From positions 1 through 34,545 of the IMG/VR virus record IMGVR_UViG_3300046004_000639: a stretch of DNA of 34,545 nucleotides. One strand, given 5' to 3'. Numbering within the stretch: position 1 is the stretch's first letter; each line of letters begins with the position of its first letter. Below, piece after piece: positions 4,198 through 10,112 of the stretch. This stretch comes from a virus. The notes under the pieces were generated by a model that was not told the origin of the DNA, searched no databases, and worked only from the letters and a program-made list of their open reading frames with translations. The translations under genes and the position numbers were made by a program.

Positions 4198-4338
4198 CTG
4201 TAAGGGAAGGATTCGAACCTCCACAAGGTCTTTAGGAACAGAACAAAATCAATTTGTGGTCAACCCATATTCTGTCTTTATTAGATATTCCTCACCCTCG
4301 AGACAAGAGGGCATGTCTGCCAATTTCATCACCTTACA
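4198..4338 (-). tRNA. tRNA-like gene A, anticodon arm reads GTC, expanded variable region
   Basis: The acceptor stem TGTAAGG/CCTTACA is perfect, the D arm (ATGAAATTGGCAGACAT) is of the Leu/class II type, the anticodon stem CCCTC/GAGGG is perfect with a 7-base loop TTGTCTC, and the T arm has the canonical loop TTCGAAT. Read normally the anticodon is GTC (Asp); C38 and discriminator G also fit Asp identity, while the D arm does not. About 70 bases sit between the anticodon stem and the T arm, where a class II tRNA has 12-20. The insertion contains nested stems (4234-4238/4288-4292 and 4238-4243/4270-4275). Total 141 bases, no encoded CCA. Confidence 0.6.
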
Positions 4339-4342
4339 ATTG

Positions 4343-4504
4343 TAGTCAGGACAGGATCTGCCCCTGTATGGTGGATATTTTTCTTTATTGCAGAAGGTCA
4401 CATATATATTAAACCCCAATGCGTGGAACTATCCTATGCTTGCAAGACATATTTTAACCTTAAAACCAACAAGTATGCGTCTCTCATATTTTCGCCACCT
4501 GACT
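4343..4504 (-). tRNA. tRNA-like gene B, degenerate, expanded variable region
   Basis: The acceptor AGTCAGG/CCTGACT is perfect and identical to that of genes C and the one at 9980. The D stem GCG/CGC is kept, but the D loop lacks the GG pair. The T stem ACAGG/CCTGT is kept, but the loop reads GGCAGAT instead of TTCGAAT. An imperfect anticodon stem (one mismatch) leaves a loop TTGGTTT, giving GGT (Thr) if functional. Some 88 bases separate it from the T arm and include a 12-base arm (4368-4379) of the inverted-repeat element found upstream of DNA polymerase. It could be a decayed copy or a tRNA mimic. Confidence 0.45.
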
Positions 4505-4587
4505 ATATTGCTTGTCTTTCCAAGCTGTCAAGTAATTTCTCCAGATTAACGGACTGGATGCCATATAGGAAGATTACTATTTCTCCG
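4505..4587 (-). ncRNA. Structured spacer between tRNA-like genes
   Basis: The 83 bases between two tRNA-like genes hold three stems: 4510-4514/4521-4525, 4540-4544/4554-4558, and 4531-4536/4573-4578, the last enclosing the second. I could not fold it as a tRNA. It would be released as a separate RNA if the flanking tRNA-like elements are processed by RNase P and RNase Z. Confidence 0.35.
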
Positions 4588-4706
4588 TAGTCAGGACAAG
4601 ATTCGAACTTGCATCATATATTTTCTAGAAAAATATATAAACTTACGCTATTTTTATACAGTGGTATTGCCCCACAGTAGTGTCTAACCAATTTCACCAC
4701 CTGACT
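4588..4706 (-). tRNA. tRNA-like gene C, Leu-type, candidate anticodon CAA, expanded variable region
   Basis: Perfect acceptor AGTCAGG/CCTGACT, Leu-type D arm (GTGAAATTGGTTAGACAC), canonical T loop TTCGAAT and discriminator A. The central stem is unusually long, eight pairs with one T-T mismatch (4657-4664/4672-4679), and closes a 7-base loop GGCAATA, so CAA (Leu) is the natural reading but position 33 is G rather than the near-universal U. The variable region of about 46 bases holds a 9-bp AT hairpin (4616-4624/4630-4638). It is 119 bases long in total, with no encoded CCA. Confidence 0.55.
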
Positions 4707-9979: not shown

Positions 9980-10112
9980 TAGTCAGGACAGGATTCGAAC
10001 CTGTATGTGAGTTATCTTTTCTGCTCCATTTCTCAGGATATATTAAGCAGAGCGTGTCAGTTACTCACTAAAACACAAATAGATTAGCGTCTACCAATTC
10101 CGCAACCTGACT
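9980..10112 (-). tRNA. tRNA-like gene E, Leu-type, expanded variable region, no normal anticodon arm
   Basis: The acceptor AGTCAGG/CCTGACT, the Leu-type D arm GCGGAATTGGTAGACGC, the T arm with TTCGAAT and the discriminator A are all textbook. The central region is not: the only anticodon-like stem is four pairs (CTAA/TTAG) closing a 12-base loop. The variable arm is closed by GTGAGT/ACTCAC (10007-10012/10063-10068) and extends for about 60 bases with a further stem 10021-10025/10046-10050. It shares its acceptor with genes B and C, so these are paralogues. No amino-acid assignment can be made. Confidence 0.5.

Follow-up and report, generated by a model that had tools for sequence, protein, structure and literature searches.

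Phage tRNA-like elements with a variable structured domain, usually in place of the anticodon arm: a candidate class of non-decoding RNAs

Described systems closest to the elements

The tRNA genes of phages are commonly interpreted as codon supplements. Class II tRNAs (Leu, Ser, Tyr, Sec) share with the phage elements described here a Leu-like D arm (GGCG-AATTGGTAGA-CGC), U48, A73 (in 87%) and a variable-region helix that ends beside the T stem, but the phage elements either lack the anticodon arm or have it in altered form, the distance between their D and T stems is 40-110 nt, and ARAGORN calls only 28 of 293. Allo-tRNA and selC* tRNA-Cys, which come from metagenomes, have a non-canonical cloverleaf with a longer variable arm; their acceptor branch is 8/4 or 9/3, they possess an anticodon arm, and the allo-tRNA anticodons include GUC (PMC7609411). 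The phage elements differ from both in having a 7/5 branch (7-bp acceptor, 5-bp T stem) and mostly no anticodon arm.

tmRNA likewise has a tRNA-like acceptor and T arm, a large structured domain in place of the anticodon arm, and pseudoknots, but it is about 400 nt long with a tag-coding stretch, whereas most of the phage elements measure 85-180 nt and their D arm stays paired, and true tmRNA genes are present separately in relatives of these phages. Such genes were seen in DNA-polymerase relatives of the window phage (L083 4388-4799, L085 4522-4933, L124 978-1299) and in a phage with a tRNA array (L417, 2075-2566). A possible functional parallel is offered by type III antitoxin pseudoknots such as ToxI and their phage mimics, which are small phage-borne RNA pseudoknots directed against a host protein; RNAs of this type are not tRNA-shaped and are made as tandem repeats, and beside the phage elements described here no recurrent neighbouring gene was found.

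Identification as a canonical tRNA, an allo-tRNA, a tmRNA or an intron-bearing tRNA breaks down in each case on a defining test. We found no earlier description of the class in open-access papers, a search of limited scope that does not prove priority, and the class is apparently undescribed until now. Our main reading, to which we give a probability of about 0.6, is that elements A, C and N of the window are members, with B a less certain one, of a large class of phage tRNA-like RNAs in which a scaffold processed like a tRNA would present a non-decoding domain.

Four tRNA-like elements in the window

The window is the whole 34,545-nt stretch of IMG/VR record IMGVR_UViG_3300046004_000639. This 34.5-kb virus fragment is taken as crAss-like from its gene content and from the label in the original prediction, and its PHROGs include terminase, portal, major head protein and DNA polymerase. 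The tRNA-like elements all lie on the minus strand, C, B and A together and then N 5.5 kb off, which the original prediction had overlooked. P_B below denotes a 6-7 bp helix that tends to end exactly 2 nt before the T stem.

4589-4706, minus strand: element C, tRNA-like, 118 nt, with loop GGCAATA (G33) and a long hairpin in the variable arm
4614-4640, minus strand: variable hairpin of C, TTATATATTTTT-CTA-GAAAATATATGA, with CCCTATG/CATAGGG there in L436
4510-4531, minus strand: conserved spacer 5 nt upstream of B, with TTGACA (a -35-like box) and the hairpin GCTTGGAAAGACAAGC
4344-4504, minus strand: element B, tRNA-like of the AGTCAGG type, 161 nt, stems intact
4199-4338, minus strand: element A, class-II-like tRNA gene, 140 nt, with a 72-nt structured variable region
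4295-4311, minus strand: anticodon arm of A, CCCTC-TTGTCTC-GAGGG, with triplet GUC, U33 and U37
4254-4263, minus strand: conserved apical motif of the variable arm of A, TTGACCACAA
9981-10112, minus strand: element N, with an 82-nt insert replacing the anticodon arm
10007-10012, minus strand: 3' strand of helix P_B of N, ACTCAC, two nt before the T stem, with the 5' strand GTGAGT at 10063-10068

A, B and C had been described as having perfect acceptor stems, with pairing also in the D and T stems, and a check of the stem sequences agreed. A has TGTAAGG/CCTTACA, ATG/CAT and GGAGG/CCTTC, C has AGTCAGG/CCTGACT and a GTG/CAC D stem, and B has a perfect acceptor with GCG/CGC and ACAGG/CCTGT in the D and T stems. 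A, C and N all have a 7-bp acceptor stem, a 5-bp T arm with a TTCRA loop and a D arm with GG. Under a strict tRNA-shape descriptor, which asks for 85-199 nt, a 7-bp acceptor, a 5-bp T arm whose loop is canonical and a D loop with GG, the real window held three elements (A, C, N) and 200 shuffled windows held a mean of 0.01, so the elements are not a product of chance.

ARAGORN found 0 tRNA genes and 0 tmRNA genes over the whole window, and Rfam, run over the window at the gathering score with fast filters, found no family, tmRNA included; in favour of the original prediction, no standard tRNA model with a normal variable arm covers A or C. ARAGORN with introns permitted gave only inconsistent calls, and that reading was dropped. 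Against the Rfam tRNA model, N scored 33.2 bits, above the cut-off of 29, and where the model has the 17 positions of its anticodon arm N has 68 nt that do not align; the same model also omits the anticodon arm of another element (L423 3322-3446). N has all three features of the proposed class, namely the tRNA elbow, an insert of at least 40 nt, and P_B 2 nt before the T stem; in A the linker is longer. A 5-bp anticodon stem with a 7-nt loop and U33 is present in A, while C has G33 and N is without the arm. The oversized variable region that had been proposed for these genes holds for A and C, which have a long variable arm, but not for N and most other members, in which the anticodon arm is lost. 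The thermodynamic fold z-scores, from a model that cannot score pseudoknots, were -2.1 for C, -1.8 for N, -1.4 for A and +0.62 for B, which means that the folds of the window elements are weak, and such folding is by itself uninformative.

In A, 72 nt separate the anticodon stem from the T stem, and the GUC triplet is seen on a body with a Leu-like D arm, as predicted, and with G73. Blastn gave a distant match in a huge phage of 636 kb (LR756504.1, L001), with 73% identity across all of the element and its insert. A pattern scan extracted 13 elements with nine distinct sequences, L416 being one more, and the anticodon loop [C/T]TGTCTC was invariant in 13/13 and in L416. Seven long forms of A were aligned (the window, L163, L165, L166, L409, L410, L416), and short forms have 92 nt (L405-L408 and L412, five identical contigs) or 103 nt (L411). 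The apical motif of the long variable arm is TTGACCAC, with the variant TAGACCAC in L416, and GACCAC within it is present in 7/7 aligned long forms. Covariation analysis of the seven long forms showed that six helices pair in 95.9% of cells and that all six are supported, with 12 pairs altered on both sides, a number equalled in 0/500 shuffles, and both variable-arm helices are among those supported. A further relative of A, at about 6376-6515 of L417, has its acceptor changed to TGTAGTG/CACTACA and still paired. Near this relative, between tRNA-Thr and tRNA-Leu, lies a GOLLD RNA (L417 5866-6283, Rfam 262 bits). A kissing interaction of the anticodon loop of A with its variable arm was considered and rejected, as L166 does not conserve it.

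In C, 47 nt lead up to the T stem and contain a 12-bp hairpin with 2 G.U pairs, whose end is 1-2 nt from the T stem. The anticodon stem had been described as eight-pair, but one T.T mismatch leaves 7/8 paired; the G33 of the same description is present. In three relatives of C (L278, L435, L436) the hairpin is retained, as are the stems of the D, anticodon and T arms, all with altered sequences, but they are nearly identical to one another, so the comparison is effectively between two lineages. From C to L436, the D stem changes from GTG/CAC to GCG/CGC, and both strands of the T stem differ as well. The anticodon-like stem of L436 has an A-T pair where C has its T.T mismatch, and a different 7-bp hairpin occupies the position of the 12-bp AT hairpin of C, which marks the hairpin noticed originally as a conserved part. 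Stem conservation in relatives thus holds for A and C, whose stems covary. Judged by these comparisons, A and C appear as separately conserved subfamilies that kept an anticodon-like arm and have a long covarying variable arm as their add-on.

Such arms raise the question of decoding by class II tRNAs whose variable arms are oversized, in which A would use the anticodon GUC and C the anticodon CAA. The 5-bp anticodon stem of A is perfect, its loop is invariant and U33 is present, and ARAGORN calls the 92-nt relatives of A tRNA-Asp(gtc), but C has G33, A combines U37 with the Leu-like D arm and G73, the L417 phage that has a relative of A already encodes a canonical tRNA-Asp(gtc), and most of the class has no anticodon arm. 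Decoding by A is possible, and one member outside the window (L423 3944-4046) scores 50 bits against Rfam tRNA and has a 5-bp, 7-nt anticodon hairpin, which suggests that part of the class might still decode; as an account of the elements in general, decoding is unlikely.

B was said to be without the D-loop GG and the T-loop TTC, and its sequence confirmed this. A homologue of its insert was looked for and none was found, and B has no helix of the P_B kind 2 nt before the T stem. B may be decaying, and it is placed in the class less surely than A, C and N. The motif of the spacer upstream of B, TTGACAGCTTGGAAAGACAAGC, occurs in ten loci (that of B and nine others), mostly near tRNA-like elements, and its usual place is after a tRNA-like 3' end and/or ahead of another element.

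The class across viral genomes

Degenerate scans with a Leu-like D arm and a T arm spaced 40-70 or 70-100 nt apart matched at least 120 viral contigs in each of the two insert-length classes, and control scans of shuffled loci and with the reversed pattern both gave 0. The scaffold-pattern scan of GTDB genomes gave eight matches, two of them false, and two of the true matches come from cultured Bacteroidota, in regions that carry phage-type genes. The pattern matches in Tenacibaculum (L399, L404) have unpaired acceptor ends and were rejected. In the cultured strain Dysgonomonas macrotermitis DSM 27370, one element (L400 1640-1785) sits in a prophage-like region, with a CI-like repressor and a phage endonuclease family close by, and the same insert is found in IMG/VR contig L361.

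The 405 loci gave 603 unique tRNA-shaped elements, 310 with a short centre and 293 with a centre of at least 38 nt, and the long ones fell into 228 insert-sequence clusters. ARAGORN called 297 of the short-centre elements against 28 of the long ones. The elbow of the class comprises the 7-bp acceptor (usually AGTCAGG/CCTGACT), the D and T arms, U8, A15-U48 and G18G19. Retention was 97% for U8, 95% for G9, 88% for U48 and 96% for the D-loop GG, in a collection gathered by scaffold patterns, so that scaffold frequencies are biased and uniformity is inflated; insert statistics and strand counts are not defined by the scan patterns. C74 was present in 253/265 class elements against 284/284 canonical tRNA genes of the same loci. 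The D-to-T interval of 40-110 nt is hugely variable and structured, the anticodon arm is missing in most members, and a 5-bp anticodon stem with a 7-nt loop and U33 was found in 5/208 inserts.

If the elements were precursors with introns at noncanonical places, their removal would give ordinary tRNAs, and both the intact tRNA scaffold and the varying length and sequence of the inserts fit this. But anticodon stems split at the canonical intron site numbered 6, against 6.0 expected from shuffles preserving base composition only, deletion of the stretch from D arm to T arm leaves no anticodon, and no intron family was among the best 150 Rfam matches in the arrays. An insert search gave 669 matches, 248 of them outside the de-duplicated element list, and among those listed, all insert matches elsewhere appear to lie in tRNA-like elements. 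The same result led us to reject the inserts as mobile sequences, for all 36 distinct loci among the matches listed seemed to be additional copies in tRNA-like elements; L051, among the listed matches, is a truncated copy. The suggestion of structured add-ons that are not canonical introns was thus upheld, that of noncanonical introns lost ground with the chance-level count, and an intron explanation is poorly supported and very improbable.

Inside the inserts, a strong P_B with a 2-nt linker occurred 29 times among 205 insert representatives against 2.7 expected, and at a looser threshold in 60/205 against 11.2 expected; at that threshold 3-nt linkers were also enriched and linkers of five to seven nt were near chance. 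The first stem, P_A, was weakly enriched (15 against 7.1 expected). These shuffles, too, preserve base composition only, and all the thresholds and linkers tried, which were several, are reported. Because an overlapping set had already shown the 2-nt linker, the later, wider linker scan is a restatement and not an independent test. Independent support comes from the covariation of A, of an aligned subfamily and of C. In the aligned subfamily, P_B has compensatory changes at three pairs, and one member (L427) has its acceptor stem swapped with compensation around the same insert. L204 and L196 also share an insert between quite different yet paired acceptor stems. The 5' strand of P_B often lies within the loop of P_A, which suggests an H-type pseudoknot, and one is likely in some members, e.g. 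L228, L271 and L327.

The same changes bear on the idea of decaying tRNA pseudogenes with acquired insertions. B, with its missing D-loop and T-loop contacts and an insert of no found homologue, would suit it, but in A, C and the family, though not in B, the acceptor, D and T stems are kept paired by compensatory changes across phages and the insert helices covary. Pseudogene decay is contradicted by this pairing for A, C and the class, but not for B; wholesale decay is poorly supported, and we regard it as extremely improbable.

Two further tRNA-like elements (L413 6982-7085 and L423 2884-2986) have an 8-bp covarying anticodon-like stem enclosing a hairpin, with TCTTACAT/ATGTAAGA in one and CTCTGTGT/ACACAGAG in the other. 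Very long candidates were L415 5499-5730 (232 nt) and L423 3599-3782 (184 nt), and the former contains GGTTCGAATCC and may hold a second tRNA-like fold.

The long elements are interleaved with ordinary tRNA genes in arrays that contain as many as 28 canonical tRNAs and as many as 10 elements. All 840 of 840 element-tRNA neighbour pairs were on the same strand, and 0 of the 76 loci with several elements were mixed in strand, which speaks for action as RNA, although phage strand bias weakens the argument. The largest protein family near the elements was found in just 12/192 loci and the top families resemble ordinary phage genes, so no partner gene is implied. The place among tRNA arrays, the missing anticodon loop and up to 10 copies per genome would also suit decoys for tRNA-targeting host defences, in which a nuclease is bound through the elbow of a tRNA shape without a cleavable anticodon loop. 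But a diverse covarying domain would be needless for a decoy and the neighbouring proteins give no link to a partner or defence gene, and we consider decoys quite improbable.

A proposed tRNA-processed scaffold and its possible role

The reading we prefer is a scaffold that presents a non-decoding domain: the code-reading arm is usually replaced by another structured piece, which points to some job that is probably not decoding. The elements would be co-transcribed with the neighbouring tRNAs, cleaved by the RNase P and RNase Z of the host and given CCA, and the outcome would be stable tRNA-shaped RNAs incapable of decoding. Processing by RNase P and RNase Z is plausible because the 3' ends share the C74 rule of ordinary phage tRNA genes. 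In A and C, as two subfamilies in which an anticodon-like arm is retained, the add-on would take the form of the long variable arm. Our guess is that the variable domain is the working part and may bind a host factor, which could be a defence or toxin protein, a nuclease or the translation machinery; resistance to anticodon nucleases, which had been put forward originally, is likewise a guess.

More tentatively, and at somewhat less than even odds, Bacteroidota phages may keep hypervariable effector RNAs disguised as tRNAs, in which one scaffold matured by the host would carry hundreds of pseudoknotted domains, swapped and diversified between phages in an arms race against host targets. Many loci skipped by tRNA finders appear to encode another molecule, with a tRNA elbow and a variable structured domain but no code-reading arm. 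If these domains act on host proteins, they would amount to a large and unexplored reservoir of RNA effectors in phages, and would help to explain the purpose of phage tRNA arrays.
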